Assembly: GCA_028751095.1 (NCBI GenBank)
Contig: JAQZCZ010000014.1
Coordinates: forward strand, 1 to 32,926
Direction of reading: 5' to 3'
DNA: 32,926 nt
Source: Euryarchaeota archaeon Ods01
Lineage (GTDB): Archaea; Halobacteriota; Halobacteria; Halobacteriales; Halorutilaceae
A program made the translations under genes and the position numbers. Shown one piece after another: positions 1,350-27,013 of the stretch. Under the pieces are notes generated by a model. The model ran no database searches. It had not been told where the DNA came from and saw only the letters and a program-made list of their open reading frames with translations. Within the stretch, counting starts at the first letter, position 1. Every line of letters starts with the position of its first letter.

Positions 1350-1487
1350 ACTAACGCCAACTCTGTATATCGCCCTCAGTAAAGACTGCGACTTCACCGA
1401 TATGTGTTCTCATACGGTGCACCACCCGTCTATCTAACCATCTTCGGGCACGCCAGATATTTTGCCGTCCGCACTGAATAACGTGTC

Positions 1488-2087
1488 ATGGAAACGAGAC
1501 AGGTTTCGCTGACCGAGACGCTCACCGAGGACCGTATCAGAGAGGTCGGCGAGAAGATAGCGGGCTTGCCCGACGGCGACGAGTTCGAGCGACGGGTGGA
1601 GGACGACATATGGCAGAAGTTTATTGGCGACGACCACGGCGACTTGCCCGAGTCGGTCGAGTGGGACGACCTACCCGACGAGAGCAAGTCGGTTATCGGG
1701 TACGCGGACGAGGAGAACGCGGAGGTTCCGTGGTGGCTGGAGTCGTTCGGATGGGAGGCAAGTTCGAACGCGGAAACCATTGATAATATCGGTGATTCGT
1801 TGTCAGTTTTCGGTAACACGAACCTTACTGAGATTCATCAGCCGAGACTGGACGAAAATATCACATCGGTACTCAATAGCTTCGATAGACTACACGAAGC
1901 CATAGACGAACGCGTCGGTATTAACGGCGAAAATTCGGACTACTCCTTAGGAGAGGATATCTTCCGAATGTCTGATGGCAAGGTAGAAACGACCGATTCA
2001 TTCGAAGAATGGTTCAAAAATCTGCTCGGTCTGTGTCCACCGCACAACGAAGAACTCACGTCTCTTCTGATGGTTAACTCCAACTGA
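1488..2087 (+). CDS. Hypothetical protein (199 aa), first gene of the AAA+/nuclease-like operon
   Basis: ATG-started ORF with acidic composition, same strand and tightly spaced with the following genes; no recognisable family. Confidence 0.75.
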   Translation: METRQVSLTETLTEDRIREVGEKIAGLPDGDEFERRVEDDIWQKFIGDDHGDLPESVEWDDLPDESKSVIGYADEENAEVPWWLESFGWEASSNAETIDNIGDSLSVFGNTNLTEIHQPRLDENITSVLNSFDRLHEAIDERVGINGENSDYSLGEDIFRMSDGKVETTDSFEEWFKNLLGLCPPHNEELTSLLMVNSN

Positions 2088-2098
2088 GACGTGAGGTA

Positions 2099-2551
2099 GT
2101 GAGGGAAACCTTCTCAGATGGGGATGCTGTCTTGGAGACACTCGAAAGCGTAGGCTATTCAGGAGAGAAGATACACGAGGAGGAGTACCGCAAACCGTTG
2201 AAAAATATCATGCGGGGTATGGGAGGTGTCTTCGATATCGACGTTGAACTTCCCGACGGGATTAGCACATTGGAGATTCTGTTCTACGAGAGTTGGACTG
2301 AGAGTTATGATGTAGACGAAGACACGCTCAAATGGCTGAGGAAAGCAAGCGGTAAGCCAACAAAACTGTCCGATGGCGAGGAGACCATGTTCACCAAAGA
2401 GTGTTTTGGACTACCTCTTCGGAGGACTCGAAGAGGAATTATGTGTGTCACTTGGTCGGAGAGCGACGGTTTCCGACAATCCGGTAGATATTCTACCGCG
2501 GGTAAAAAGTCGAAGGTTCTCGAAATAATGAGTCCATCAAACTTCAGATAG
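2099..2551 (+). CDS. Hypothetical protein (150 aa)
   Basis: GTG-started ORF; stop codon directly abuts the ATG of the next gene (2552); start uncertain (frame is open back to 2078). Confidence 0.6.
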   Translation: MRETFSDGDAVLETLESVGYSGEKIHEEEYRKPLKNIMRGMGGVFDIDVELPDGISTLEILFYESWTESYDVDEDTLKWLRKASGKPTKLSDGEETMFTKECFGLPLRRTRRGIMCVTWSESDGFRQSGRYSTAGKKSKVLEIMSPSNFR

Positions 2552-4405
2552 ATGACGGAAGACCAAGACAAGCTGAATAGCCGCATATTCGACACAGAAG
2601 CAGACTCTGAAAAGTCCGGGCATACAGAAGGGGTGACGGGGAGTAGTTCCACAACGCCCGCCTCCGAGGACGACGACGAACCCACGACGCCCGACGAAAT
2701 CGAGATAGCCGTCGTCGATGAAGTGATACAGACCGATAGACGCGAGAAGACCGTTGAGGAGACCGTCGAACCCGAGGCACTATACGAACGCGTCGAAAGC
2801 CTGACCGTGCCGACCGTGGACGCCGAGACAGTCGAACTCACGCGCGTCGAGCAGTCGGTGAGCCGTCGGGTGCGCCCCGAGGCTTCCGTCGCGGAGAGCG
2901 ACGACGCGACCGGGGTTGATTCCGCGACGCTGAAGGTCCCCGTCGTCGAATCGGTCTCGGCGGAAACAGTGTCAGAGTCGGTAGAGAACCGCGTCTCGCC
3001 CGCCGAGGAACCCGAAGCGCGCGAGAAGTTCGAGGTGACGACGGTCAAGGCGTCGGTCGAAAAGATAGAAGAGTCCGTCAGCCAACAGATAGCACCACAA
3101 CAGAGTTCAAGCATGGAAGAGATAGAACCTGACGAAGAGGACCCCGTATTTTCGTGGGCGGGCGGTTCGCCGTACGGCTCCGGAAAGCCGAAGTTCGTGA
3201 TACACAAGAGCGACGGCGGCGTGGATACGCTCCCGTTCCTCCAAATCCTCCTACGCGACACGTACAAGGAGATGGTAGGCGGAGAACCCAACGGCGAGAC
3301 GGTAGAGTTCGTTGCGAACGAGCCGCGCGTACCGAGCGTGCAGAAGAGCATCGTGACGCTTGACCTGACTGACAGTGGGTGGAGCGCGAAGGTACGCGAC
3401 GGCAAGCCCGTCATACAGCGCAACTCCGACGATATCGTGCCGAAGCTACGTGAGGTCGTTTCGACGCTCTACACGGGCGAACTAGGATACTTCGTCGTTA
3501 ACGCGCCATCGGAGTGGGACGCGCAAGCCGACTTCGTGGAGGAACGGTTCTTCGAGAGGCTCGTCGCGCGGTTTACCGAGACAGAGAAAGACGAAGAGAA
3601 CGACGAAAGCCGAGAAGTGGGTGCGTTTGAGAGATTTGAATCCGCGCCCGTAGTTGTAGCCGAACCAAACTTAGACGGAGAGCAGGAACTGGAAAAGGTG
3701 ACGGCGCTGTACTTCGGCTTCAACGCTGACGAGGGCTTTCCGACTGTGCCGCAGACGGAGGAGGAAAAAGAACGCATCCTCCGAAAGAACGACTGGAAAC
3801 GTATCGCGCTGACAGAGAGACAGACCGAAGGCAACGGTGAGAGCGACGAACACTACTTCTGGAAGTCGGCTATCGTCGAAGGAATTACGCGAGAGATGTG
3901 GCTCGTTGATAAGAGCGAGAACGATGAGCGGTCTTTCGGCGAGTACATCGAAGACAGTATTCTCGGAGAGGATTTGCTTGAGACCGAGGCTGACGAAGAC
4001 GGTAAAGAAAGGAAGACGGACATCAAGGTGAACGACGGCGGAGGCGTGCCCGAGGCTGTTACGGGATTCTTCGGTAACGACGGTACGCGGGTAGAGCTTC
4101 CGCTGTACATAGAGTTTGAGACGGGACGTAACGAAGGCTCGTTCAACTTCCGCAAGATACGCGAGACAGTGGAGAAGTATGATGGTAGCGACGACGGAAC
4201 AGTCTGTGTAGTAGTTCCACCACGCCTGCTGTTCAGGGGCAGGAAACGGGCGAGGATGGTGGTCGAACTGGTCGATAACTGGGAGGGCAACGGATATGTC
4301 CGCGTGCCAGTTCTGAACCGGAGTTACTGCGCGTCGTTAGAACCCGCCGAGGTTGTCGTGAACGAACTCTACGGAGAGGAAAAAGAGGAAGAAGACGATG
4401 TCTGA
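2552..4405 (+). CDS. Hypothetical protein (617 aa): repeat-bearing acidic N-terminus plus putative PD-(D/E)xK nuclease-like C-terminal domain
   Basis: Long ORF; degenerate Val/Glu-rich repeats at residues ~50-185; C-terminal EHYFWKSAIVEGI ... KTDIKV ... LPLYIEFETGRN ... CVVVPPRLL. Confidence 0.85.
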   Translation: MTEDQDKLNSRIFDTEADSEKSGHTEGVTGSSSTTPASEDDDEPTTPDEIEIAVVDEVIQTDRREKTVEETVEPEALYERVESLTVPTVDAETVELTRVEQSVSRRVRPEASVAESDDATGVDSATLKVPVVESVSAETVSESVENRVSPAEEPEAREKFEVTTVKASVEKIEESVSQQIAPQQSSSMEEIEPDEEDPVFSWAGGSPYGSGKPKFVIHKSDGGVDTLPFLQILLRDTYKEMVGGEPNGETVEFVANEPRVPSVQKSIVTLDLTDSGWSAKVRDGKPVIQRNSDDIVPKLREVVSTLYTGELGYFVVNAPSEWDAQADFVEERFFERLVARFTETEKDEENDESREVGAFERFESAPVVVAEPNLDGEQELEKVTALYFGFNADEGFPTVPQTEEEKERILRKNDWKRIALTERQTEGNGESDEHYFWKSAIVEGITREMWLVDKSENDERSFGEYIEDSILGEDLLETEADEDGKERKTDIKVNDGGGVPEAVTGFFGNDGTRVELPLYIEFETGRNEGSFNFRKIRETVEKYDGSDDGTVCVVVPPRLLFRGRKRARMVVELVDNWEGNGYVRVPVLNRSYCASLEPAEVVVNELYGEEKEEEDDV

Positions 4406-5693
4406 GAAGACAAGTCTGCGGGACAAGCTGAATGAGTATGGCACCGAAGACGTGCGCGTCTCGGCACGGATGTCCGGCGAGTGGATGGAAAGAGAGAAGC
4501 TCAAAGCGAAGCTTGAGAGGGATAGCTATGTTGCTAATCCTGAGCCTGTAGAACGTGAACCGCGGTACAAGTATTCTGTACCACGGTACACATACTCTAC
4601 ACGTGAAGGGGAAGTCGTAGAATGGAACCACCATACTCTGTCCGTAAAGTGGATTGGCTCAGAAGCCGAGGATGTCGGTATCGTCGTCGAACTCAAGGGC
4701 GAACAGCTACCGTGGGACGAGAACGACGAACTGGAAGTCGAAGCTGAGGTACTGGATGAGTACGAAGCCGTAGGAGCCAACCACGTCGCAGGTCTTGAAG
4801 ACGAGAAAGAGGAGATACTTGACTTCCTGCGCGGAATCGACGACGACTTCGGTCTTTCCGAGCAGACGGGGATACTCCTCGAAGGACCTCCCGGGACCGG
4901 CAAGACCGAACTCGTGCGCGAAGTCTGCAAGGAGAAGTACGGCTCCGTACCCGTTATCATCTCCGGTCCCGAGATACTGAACAGATGGGTTGGCGAGTCG
5001 GAGCGCGCTCTGCGCAAGAAGTTTGAGGAGGCGCGTAACACACGGCATAAGCTTCTATATATCGACGAACTCGACGCAATCGGACGGTCGCGCGACGATA
5101 CCGAGTCGTACAGCGCGCAGATAGTCCCCCAGCTCCTCGTTCTCCTTGACGGCGTGAAAGCCAAGAAGAGGTCCGAGGGGGACAGCGAAGAAGGAAGTCT
5201 GAAGGTCATAGCGTCCACGAATAAAATCGACGCCGTTGACCGCGCACTCCTGAGACCCGGGAGACTCGGTAGCCGTGTGAGGTTCGAACCGCCGGAAGAA
5301 GAAGAGCGGCTGGCGATACTCCACCACTATCTTGAAAAGATACGTACGAGCGAAGACGGTAAGCTTGGGAGCGAACTGGAGAGGTTCGTTACCGGGGAGA
5401 AGACGGAAGCTCTGGAGGGTATTCCTGAGCGGATGGATAACCTGACAAGAGACGACCAGAGGTTAGATACCGGCGACAGAAAAGGGGGTAGCAAGGTCAC
5501 CGTCGCCGACATGGATGACTATGCACTCGAACTACGTCGTTTTGATGAGGGGAGCGGGAGCAACGATGAGGAAGTAACGGGTGCCGACATAGAGAACTGG
5601 GTCTTCGAATCAGTCAAACGTATCAGGAAGCGAGGAGAAGACACGCTTGATATCGGTACGCTGACCGAAACCCTTGACGACAGCGAGGGCTAA
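4398..5693 (+). CDS. AAA+ family ATPase (CDC48/PAN-like), 431 aa
   Basis: Walker A GPPGTGKTEL, pore/second-region-like ISGPEILNRWVGESERALRKKFEEAR, Walker B LLYIDELDAIGRSRD, sensor/arginine-finger region STNKIDAVDRALLRPGRL; overlaps the upstream CDS by 8 nt. Confidence 0.95.
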   Translation: MSEKTSLRDKLNEYGTEDVRVSARMSGEWMEREKLKAKLERDSYVANPEPVEREPRYKYSVPRYTYSTREGEVVEWNHHTLSVKWIGSEAEDVGIVVELKGEQLPWDENDELEVEAEVLDEYEAVGANHVAGLEDEKEEILDFLRGIDDDFGLSEQTGILLEGPPGTGKTELVREVCKEKYGSVPVIISGPEILNRWVGESERALRKKFEEARNTRHKLLYIDELDAIGRSRDDTESYSAQIVPQLLVLLDGVKAKKRSEGDSEEGSLKVIASTNKIDAVDRALLRPGRLGSRVRFEPPEEEERLAILHHYLEKIRTSEDGKLGSELERFVTGEKTEALEGIPERMDNLTRDDQRLDTGDRKGGSKVTVADMDDYALELRRFDEGSGSNDEEVTGADIENWVFESVKRIRKRGEDTLDIGTLTETLDDSEG

Positions 5694-5696
5694 CAC

Positions 5697-5984
5697 TCAG
5701 TATCCATACCGCTTGTGCGCCTCGTCGATGGGTAGTATCTCGGTGACACGTACCTCGTTCTTCTCCTCGTACACGTCATAGAAAGCCGTGTACTCACGCG
5801 AGATATGGATACGGTAACGTTCATCGCCGTCGATGACTAACTTCTCCTTGTCTCCCTTTCCGCTACCTGGATACGGATTCTCGGTGAGCTTCCTGAGATT
5901 ATCGCGCACTATCCTCTCGCTCTTGTCGGCCAGTCCGCGCAGAAATTCGTCAGCGTCAGGATGGAGGAGGACTTCGTAGCTCAT
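5697..5984 (-). CDS. RelE/ParE-type toxin-like protein
   Basis: 95 aa: MSYEVLLHPDADEFLRGL...RIVRDNLRKLTENPYPGSGKGDKEKL...ERYRIHISREYTAFYDVYEEKNEVRVTEILPIDEAHKRY, a RelE-like fold signature; paired with a small upstream antitoxin. Confidence 0.88.
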   Translation of the reverse strand: MSYEVLLHPDADEFLRGLADKSERIVRDNLRKLTENPYPGSGKGDKEKLVIDGDERYRIHISREYTAFYDVYEEKNEVRVTEILPIDEAHKRYGY

Positions 5985-6184
5985 CCGTCACCGAGAGAAA
6001 CAAGCTCGTCGGAGTCCATCTGCTCAGTCTCGCGCATCTTCTCAGCGAGCTTCTCACGGTTCCGTTTCCGGTATTCGTCGAGAAGTTCGGTGATGACGTC
6101 GTCGTACGAGTCACCCACATCCTTGAGTTTATGTAGCTCGTCGCGGTTCTTCTCCGAAATACGTATCGTCTTCTCGGCGGACAT
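5981..6184 (-). CDS. Small antitoxin-like protein (67 aa)
   Basis: Internal start MSAEKTIRISEKNRDELHKLKDVGDSYDDVITELLDEYRKR (ribbon-helix-helix/VapB-like N-terminus) overlaps the toxin start by 4 nt; the longer ORF to 6436 is antisense to the next gene and is not supported. Confidence 0.82.
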   Translation of the reverse strand: MSAEKTIRISEKNRDELHKLKDVGDSYDDVITELLDEYRKRNREKLAEKMRETEQMDSDELVSLGDG

Positions 6185-6245
6185 ACTTACATGTATGCAT
6201 TGTGTGCGGTCGTATATGTCATTTTCGCCGTCGGTCACGACACGC

Positions 6246-6911
6246 CTAACGCCCTTCCGCGAGACGTTCCGCAAGCGACTCGGGCAGACCCGCACGGCGT
6301 ATCTCGTCCTGAACGCGCGAGACGGGGTACTCGACCCGCCGTAACTCGACCTCGCCCGTTTCCTCGTCCAACAACGCGTAACCCGCACGCGGGTCGCCGT
6401 CCCTCGGCTGTCCCACGCTTCCCGGGTTGACGACAACGCCCTCGTCGTACTCCTCCTTACCCTGCACGTGCGTATGTCCGAGGACGAGTACTTCCTCGCC
6501 GCTTAGGAGCGTCGGCGAGAAGTCGCGCGGGTACGTATACCGGTCGGGCGCGTCCGGAGCGCCGTGAGCGACCTTGACCCGCGTATCGCCGAAAACCGTC
6601 TCGCGCTCGTGCGGGAGCGCGCCGAGCCAGTCGATACGTTCGTCGTCTAACTCCTCCCGCGTCCATTCGACGGCACGTCCGGCGGTCGAATGGAAGCCGA
6701 ACGAACCGCCGCCTGCGACCGCACAGTCGTGGTTACCCTGTACCGTCGCCGCGCCGAGTTCACGGACGGCGTCGATAGATTCGCGCGGATACGGGTTGTA
6801 GCCGACCGTGTCTCCCGCGTTGACGAAGCCGTCTACCTCCGGCGCGTCGTCCAAGACGGCGTCAAGCGCGGGCTTGTTACCGTGGATATCGCTGATTAAT
6901 GCGACGGTCAT
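6246..6911 (-). CDS. Metallophosphoesterase family protein
   Basis: MTVALISDIHGNKPALDAVL, AGDTVGYNPYP, VQGNHD, LGHTHVQ and NPGSVGQPRDGDPRAGYALL calcineurin-like phosphoesterase motifs; internal ATG at 6911. Confidence 0.93.
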   Translation of the reverse strand: MTVALISDIHGNKPALDAVLDDAPEVDGFVNAGDTVGYNPYPRESIDAVRELGAATVQGNHDCAVAGGGSFGFHSTAGRAVEWTREELDDERIDWLGALPHERETVFGDTRVKVAHGAPDAPDRYTYPRDFSPTLLSGEEVLVLGHTHVQGKEEYDEGVVVNPGSVGQPRDGDPRAGYALLDEETGEVELRRVEYPVSRVQDEIRRAGLPESLAERLAEGR

Positions 6912-7503: not shown

Positions 7504-7935
7504 TTACGAGAGAGTCCGGTAGAGTAGGTAGGCGGCAAGTGCCAAGATTGCAACAGGTACGAGGAAACGGGCGGATATCTTGATGAGCGCTCCCGCCACA
7601 GGTAAGAAGATACCGCCTAGGACAAGCGCGACGGCGACGATGCCGCCTATCTTCAGGTACTTGCGTGTGTCGCGTGAGTTTTCGACAGGAACGGCTTCCT
7701 CGTCGGCGTTTTCGAACTCGTCGATGGGTACGTCGTCCTCGACTACTTCGCCGGAGTCGAGCATCTCCTGTATCTCTCCGACGGTCCGATATGTCTCAAC
7801 GCCTTCTTCCAACGTCTCCACCGTCACTACCTCCTCCTCTTCCTCAGCGCGTATATCGACGACCCTGTAGGTCAGGTCGAGTTCAAGGTTGGTGTAGACA
7901 TCACCGACTTCTACCACGTCTTTGTTTCGTGTCAC
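7504..7935 (-). CDS. Hypothetical protein with C-terminal transmembrane segments
   Basis: 143 aa ORF; acidic soluble N-terminus, then IGGIVAVALVLGGIFLPVAGAL and FLVPVAILALAAYLLYRTL hydrophobic segments. Confidence 0.8.
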   Translation of the reverse strand: MTRNKDVVEVGDVYTNLELDLTYRVVDIRAEEEEEVVTVETLEEGVETYRTVGEIQEMLDSGEVVEDDVPIDEFENADEEAVPVENSRDTRKYLKIGGIVAVALVLGGIFLPVAGALIKISARFLVPVAILALAAYLLYRTLS

Positions 7936-26741: not shown

Positions 26742-26769
26742 CGAGGGGTAGCGACGGATGAGAGCGGAT

Positions 26770-26842
26770 GGGTTCGCCCGGTTTCGAACCGGGGACCTCC
26801 GCCTTGTAAGGGCGGTGTCATAACCAACTAGACCACGAACCC
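26770..26842 (-). tRNA. tRNA-Val (anticodon TAC)
   Basis: Cloverleaf on minus strand: gggttcg...cgaaccc acceptor stem, CCGCC-CTTACAA-GGCGG anticodon arm, GGTTCGAAACC T-arm. Confidence 0.97.
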
Positions 26843-26939: not shown

Positions 26940-27013
26940 GCCGCCTTAGCTCAGCCTGGGAGAGCGCTCGACTGAAGATCGAGTTGTCCCCCGTTCAAAT
27001 CGGGGAGGCGGCA
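26940..27013 (+). tRNA. tRNA-Phe (anticodon GAA)
   Basis: gccgcct...aggcggc acceptor stem, CTCGA-CTGAAGA-TCGAG anticodon arm, CCCCGTTCAAATCGGGG T-arm. Confidence 0.97.

Follow-up and report, generated by a model that had tools for sequence, protein, structure and literature searches.

The window analysed here, the whole of a 32,926-nucleotide stretch (contig JAQZCZ010000014.1 of assembly GCA_028751095.1, Euryarchaeota archaeon Ods01), is one contig of a haloarchaeal assembly of ~1.87 Mb in total. Near its start it carries a cassette of three genes, here called A, B and C, which we consider to be an undescribed and probably new kind of immune system in salt-loving archaea. The open reading frames (ORFs) of the cassette and one predicted site within them are as follows (aa, amino acids):

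1488..2087, + strand: 5' part of gene A, 199 aa, residues 1-199 of A (gene 1 of an earlier sequence-only reading of this stretch)
2099..2551, + strand: 3' part of gene A, 150 aa, GTG start (gene 2 of that reading)
2552..4405, + strand: gene B, 617 aa
3839..4231, + strand: predicted nuclease active-site region of B, residues 430-560 (ESDEHYFWK ... TE ... D ... EFETG ... VVVPP)
4398..5693, + strand: gene C, 431 aa, a classic AAA+ ATPase

The sequence-only reading had described four same-strand ORFs with tight junctions, and both the coordinates and the junctions were borne out: the stop codon of the 3' part of A (2549-2551) abuts the ATG of B at 2552, and B and C overlap by 8 nucleotides.

The cassette recurs as a unit. 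All loci with a full-length B (15/15) show the order A-B-C on one strand, with gene ends that mostly overlap or abut. These loci come from 11/394 sampled Halobacteria genomes, one Halobacteriales metagenome genome, plasmids of Haladaptatus and Haloplanus, and G640, a cassette genome of the same phylum that lies outside the order; one Haloplanus plasmid record belongs to a genome counted already, and the B of H. rubicundus is annotated short at its N-terminus. The genome samples were drawn from a larger group, and gene calls at the relatives' loci were made from ORFs. The linkage is well beyond chance: A and B share exactly the same 11 of the 394 Halobacteria genomes (hypergeometric 1e-21, with relatedness ignored). 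The carriers span 9-10 genera with a patchy spread, and the B and C trees are congruent in their main clades. Among the sampled genomes that carry a cassette, the closest to the window is that of Halorutilus salinus F3-133, a streamlined strain on which a new order of haloarchaea was founded (PMC10134839). A scan of genome contigs with two peptide patterns recovered only three loci, and matches from the class search in G071 and G365 were rejected as low-complexity similarity to large subtilases.

The idea of a conserved system joining an AAA+ protein to a nuclease-like partner is upheld by this co-occurrence of homologues in the same order, and, as had been supposed, none of the characterised systems in PADLOC, NCBIfam and Pfam corresponds to the pair. 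Neither is an A-B-C cassette described in the open-access literature, the scope that was searched. A gave no family match in Pfam, NCBIfam, PHROGs or PADLOC, and B gave no profile match in these collections or in the PDB (a lone HSDR_N_2 match stands at E 0.057); since both families are absent from all four collections, current defence scans miss them.

What did not survive of the sequence-only reading is its division of A into two genes. In intact relatives A is a single protein of ~340-414 aa (~370 aa), of which genes 1 and 2 of the window are the N- and C-terminal parts. Of the ~360 positions in the A profile, the 5' ORF aligns to the first ~210 and the 3' ORF, in another frame, to 221-356, each matching just its own half. 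The reading frame changes between about 2075 and 2098, and a stop ends the 5' part, in which the near-invariant PWWLxxFxW motif of A is located. A four-gene system would make the two ORFs separate proteins, as their different frames in the window might suggest. However, A is uninterrupted in all 13 loci that carry it intact, and the sole other broken copy, that of H. salinus, breaks elsewhere (near residue 68, within a short AG repeat), so that four genes are barely credible and the real unit is a three-gene cassette with its first gene broken. Programmed frameshifting was ruled out because all other relatives have one continuous frame. Intact cassettes are found, for instance, in Halorubrum coriense and on plasmids of Haladaptatus sp. 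DYSN1 and Haloplanus sp. GDY1.

As the breaks in the window and in H. salinus lie at different places, at least one of them either arose independently or reflects an error of assembly, and the break in the window may itself be such an error. With its broken A, the window's own copy of the cassette is probably inactive or dying. Inside A, the guanine-plus-cytosine content of the window copy drops from 0.61 to 0.47 after ~1776, and that of the H. salinus copy from 0.57 to 0.48; among the other relatives, only some have such a drop, and it is milder. A single match of A to FtsX_ECD was insignificant and was dismissed, and a sigma-70 promoter scan was uninformative for archaea.

B is laid out as a variable acidic repeat region (~1-190), a conserved middle domain (~195-330) and a C-terminal PD-(D/E)XK-like domain (~408-600). 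The long acidic repeat region that had been noticed in the 617-aa protein corresponds to its poorly conserved N-terminal ~190 residues. Residues H434, K438, E479, D490, E521 and E523 are invariant in 27/27 well-aligned members of the wider B family (the L107 ORF, misaligned in the 28-row motif table, is excluded from this count), and D490 and E521-x-E523, with E479, H434 and K438, form the acidic constellation of PD-(D/E)XK proteins. In an AlphaFold2 (AF2) model of B made from four sequences (predicted template modelling score, pTM, 0.60), these residues fall on a predicted alpha-beta-beta-beta-alpha-beta core (local predicted distance difference test score, pLDDT, about 55-82), with the H/K pair on a helix, D490 on the second strand and ExE on the third. 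The modelled order is that expected of PD-(D/E)XK nucleases, an agreement that is good but not decisive. Of the proposed nuclease-like C-terminus, then, the invariant acidic residues hold up, and a profile match to a known nuclease was not found. We consider it likely that B is a nuclease. A single match of B to prefoldin was insignificant and was likewise dismissed.

In C, the AAA+ motifs that had been called intact are present and conserved among its relatives: Walker A (GPPGTGKT), Walker B (LLYIDELDAI), sensor-1 (STN) and RPGR, together with an aromatic pore loop (RWVGESE). The Walker motifs, sensor 1, the arginine fingers and the pore-loop residue W197 are invariant in 11 aligned members. 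There is a single AAA domain at ~117-330 (Pfam AAA, E 4.5e-31), and C is most like Cdc48/p97, with profile matches down to E 5e-95. It nevertheless remains below the curated cut-offs for CDC48 (120.9 vs 802.65 bits) and PAN (113.2 vs 500 bits). Most relatives of C have a further C-terminal domain of ~110 aa, which is missing in the window and in H. salinus. On balance, it seems that C acts on protein, not DNA.

Being a good Cdc48-like ATPase, C might be a specialised PAN/Cdc48 paralogue with client-specific partners, serving protein quality control or DNA maintenance. Its presence in only 11/394 genomes, on plasmids and beside defence genes, its fast evolution and its scores far below the PAN/CDC48 cut-offs all argue against such a role, which we regard as very improbable. 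Another alternative is an ATP-dependent restriction system similar to McrBC, in which a ring of C would bind B and translocate DNA, A would read a DNA mark, and cutting would follow translocation. The combination of an AAA+ ring, a PD-(D/E)XK-like subunit and a third, possibly target-reading subunit fits this scheme, as do the B relatives near methylase-type defence loci and an N-6 methylase near the Haloplanus cassette copy. However, C belongs to the classic Cdc48/PAN branch, with a protein-threading aromatic pore loop, and not to the McrB branch; Pfam and PADLOC scans found no McrB or McrC homologues among the cassette proteins, and the cassette includes no methyltransferase. We therefore judge a restriction system of this type unlikely, if less so than a housekeeping role.

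B also has relatives outside the cassette. A profile made from two diverged B-like proteins finds relatives in 24/394 genomes of the phylum, the window and G640 counted in, and the alignment of the diverged proteins to B spans its middle and C-terminal domains (HHalign 99.4%, E 2e-21). In the loci read, these proteins are not paired with an AAA+ protein; their partner is either A' (~320-480 aa, nine loci) or the smaller c5 (five loci). A' and c5 are mutually related (profile comparison, 95%); homology of A to A' or c5 was rejected, at profile-comparison probabilities of 1.2% and 0.1%, respectively. With these different partners, B resembles an effector that is combined with different regulators, and since its relatives with A' or c5 have no AAA+ gene, the role of C would be specific to the A-B-C variant. 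In G527, an A'-B' pair (L109 7223-15202) adjoins a CARF-like ORF and a protein that PADLOC assigns to 'TPR' (E 0).

In the halophile G016, a c5-B' pair lies inside a bacteriophage exclusion (BREX) locus, between a nucleotidyltransferase-like (MNT) gene and PglX-PglZ; helicases, large ATPases and a gene of the size of BrxB flank it on either side. PglX and PglZ were identified by PADLOC (E 0), and the remaining genes of the locus were read by eye. Over its two pieces (L114 735-13942, L113 5871-19598), the locus holds two large ATPases, two PglX genes (one split) and PglZ, with c5-B' before PglX. BREX loci are reported to recruit auxiliary nucleases (PMC12839542); in the sections of that review covered here, and by term search, no Cdc48-type cassette is named.

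Known defence genes and mobile DNA accompany the cassette itself. TmtA (Tiamat) lies 160-250 base pairs upstream of A-B-C on the same strand in G002 and G046, and within 40 kilobases of it in G142 and G292, against a background of 80/394 genomes; a rough Poisson estimate puts this closeness at about 1e-5 per count, assuming about seven TmtA loci in 11 genomes. Three copies of the cassette are on megaplasmids, and integrases, IS110, TnpB, Orc/PolB and D5-type primase genes recur near cassettes. No B relative was found in phage records or viral contigs. Association with known defence genes and mobile DNA goes beyond chance, as seen from TmtA, the BREX-embedded B relative and the plasmids. These same features, all from other loci, support the defence-type setting that the sequence-only reading had proposed; the local toxin-antitoxin pair on which it had also drawn is no evidence of a defence island, as this pair belongs to the ancestral interval described below. 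We conclude that the cassette probably serves defence or inter-element conflict. In Haloplanus sp. GDY1 (L019 5979-7586, L041 5279-8092), the cassette lies between genes for a MoxR-type AAA_5 ATPase and a protein with a VWA domain.

In the window, the cassette is flanked by the following genes:

147-1349: argG, upstream of the cassette
5697-5984, - strand: toxin, 95 aa, RelE/YoeB-like (weak), a neighbour outside the cassette
5984-6184, - strand: antitoxin, VapB-type (Pfam VAPB_antitox, E 1.2e-7), a neighbour outside the cassette
~6246-6911: metallophosphoesterase, beyond the toxin-antitoxin pair

These genes lie where the sequence-only reading had placed them. Further along the window there are two divergent tRNA genes, tRNA-Val(TAC) at 26769-26842 (- strand) and tRNA-Phe(GAA) at 26940-27013 (+ strand).

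The interval between argG and the metallophosphoesterase (window 1350-6245) is variable across Halorutilaceae and one other family (L015, L067, L068, L069). It holds a toxin-antitoxin pair and small ORFs, and no cassette, in G288 of the same family; the toxin-antitoxin pair and then A-B-C in H. salinus; A-B-C and then the pair in the window; a lone C in G706; and a permease and a PIN-domain gene in G021, which is from another family. Because the toxin-antitoxin pair lies on opposite sides of the cassette, the window species and H. salinus might have acquired it independently. This was rejected as less simple than a single acquisition with rearrangement and rapid divergence: C of the window, of H. 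salinus and of G706, all Halorutilaceae, falls in a single clade (99/97), which makes one acquisition likely. The lone C of G706 (L069 9315-10901) is 528 aa long, with the C-terminal extension present. The window toxin (5697-5984) matches just a shortened stretch in H. salinus (L015 reverse complement ~7557-7754), and the antitoxin there is intact and 84% identical. A metallophosphoesterase of the same family stands beside B-family cassettes in three settings (window 6246-6911, L042 13105-13764, L039 7987-8658), after the cassette and on the same strand in two of them; it could be an optional accessory or a chance neighbour.

Since its acquisition, the cassette has diverged to ~50% identity, compared with 80-88% for most flanking genes. 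Nonsynonymous divergence (dN) reaches 0.38 in B and 0.32 in C vs 0.07-0.08 in argG and gyrA, about five times faster than the neighbours, and its ratio to synonymous divergence (dN/dS) is 0.27 for B and 0.19 for C, with synonymous sites near saturation. B and C are thus changing fast under constraint, as expected of conflict genes. With A broken in two genomes and C alone in a third, the cassette is probably decaying in Halorutilaceae, with loss starting at A. This pattern bears on the possibility that the cassette is a plasmid or island maintenance module, working by addiction or competitor exclusion, whose nuclease, restrained by A or C, would hit cells or elements devoid of the cassette or losing it. 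The three megaplasmid copies, the integrase neighbours and the decay in a streamlined host family are all in keeping with it. However, the cassette has no small antitoxin-like partner, and the Halorutilaceae retain intact and constrained B and C with a broken A; were A the antitoxin, active B should go first. We find such a module improbable.

We instead favour, as the moderately likely interpretation, that the three genes make up an immune cassette (for inter-genome conflict) which has spread horizontally among haloarchaea, with B as effector, C as motor and A as sensor or adaptor. The sequences themselves show which genes the cassette holds and in what order, their obligate linkage, the AAA+ motifs, the invariant nuclease-like residues, the congruent trees and the defence context. 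The nuclease activity of B, the assembly of a ring, the contacts between partners and the sensor role of A are all inferred. B would be an endonuclease of the PD-(D/E)XK type, carried on a long N-terminal repeat region and having an E/D/ExE site like that of BamHI. C would form a hexameric Cdc48-type ring whose aromatic pore loops thread and remodel a protein partner with ATP, and A would join a signal from the invader to B and C. In the resting state, A might silence B or present it to C. Upon infection, C would exert a pull on either A or the flexible N-terminal stretch of B; active B, freed or assembled in this way, would cut the invading (or all) DNA.

Several observations weigh against this immune interpretation. 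G706, from the same genus, has a full-length C in the same chromosomal place with A and B missing, and the diverged B members have no AAA+ partner in the loci read. Neighbours vary between loci, so guilt by association is statistical. A has no significant structural match, and its AF2 model is unusable (pTM 0.46, fold not predictable). The model of B, from its four sequences, is of moderate confidence; Foldseek returned nothing for it at E<=0.001 and gave only weak nuclease matches (e.g. EcoT38I and endodeoxyribonuclease I), and the C-terminal domain has no profile match to a solved nuclease.

Archaeal immunity beyond CRISPR is little explored, and a cassette joining an unfolding ATPase to a nuclease-like protein offers a testable case of how DNA cutting might be triggered by an unfoldase. 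To our knowledge, direct switching of a DNA-cutting effector by a Cdc48-like protein unfoldase has not been described for any immune system. We tentatively suggest, at somewhat less than even chances, that B is the founding member of a superfamily of BamHI-type effector nucleases found across the archaea, whose regulators are exchangeable (A together with a Cdc48-type unfoldase, A', or c5, within BREX as well); in the A-B-C form, the unfoldase would switch the DNA-cutting effector directly. Members of the wider B family, which occur with two or more alternative partners and in one case embedded in BREX, form a natural series for separating the sensing from the killing part, and in the Halorutilaceae the probable piecemeal loss of such a system can be followed.

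Comparison with known systems places the cassette near several of them. C shares its AAA domain, pore loop and second region of homology with CDC48, PAN and Vps4; unlike these, it combines one AAA domain (CDC48 has two) with a divergent N-terminus and a variable C-terminal extension, and it falls below all cut-offs. The anti-phage system IetAS, which consists of the AAA+ protein IetA and the subtilase IetS, also pairs a classic AAA+ protein with a hydrolase, and the best PADLOC matches of C are IetA models (E 6e-17). However, C reaches 52.9 vs an IetA equivalog cut-off of 510 bits, its partner is nuclease-like, with no peptidase S8 match in B by Pfam scan, and there is a third gene, A. McrBC likewise has a ring ATPase and a PD-(D/E)XK-type subunit, but C is of a different AAA+ branch and the partner A is unrelated. 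In the CBASS systems (cyclic-oligonucleotide-based antiphage signalling) with TRIP13 (Cap6) and HORMA (Cap7), an AAA+ remodeller controls a nuclease effector; the TRIP13 match of C is weak, and the cassette is without a nucleotidyltransferase, HORMA or NucC gene. The window cassette differs from BREX in that PglX, PglZ and BrxC are absent at its locus, where the neighbours are argG, the toxin-antitoxin pair, the metallophosphoesterase and gyrA; its link to BREX and the auxiliary PD-(D/E)XK effectors of BREX (PMC12839542) is the diverged B relative that lies with c5 inside the G016 BREX locus. In BamHI, E77, D94, E111 and E113 are catalytic (PMC8845596), and a glutamate stands where the usual lysine would be (PMC4081073, PMC8845596). 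Although B differs from BamHI and other PD-(D/E)XK nucleases in having no detectable profile homology, an extra H/K on the first helix and another spacing, it shares with BamHI the E...D...ExE arrangement, the glutamate in place of lysine, and a local motif, EFETG, that is identical in both proteins.

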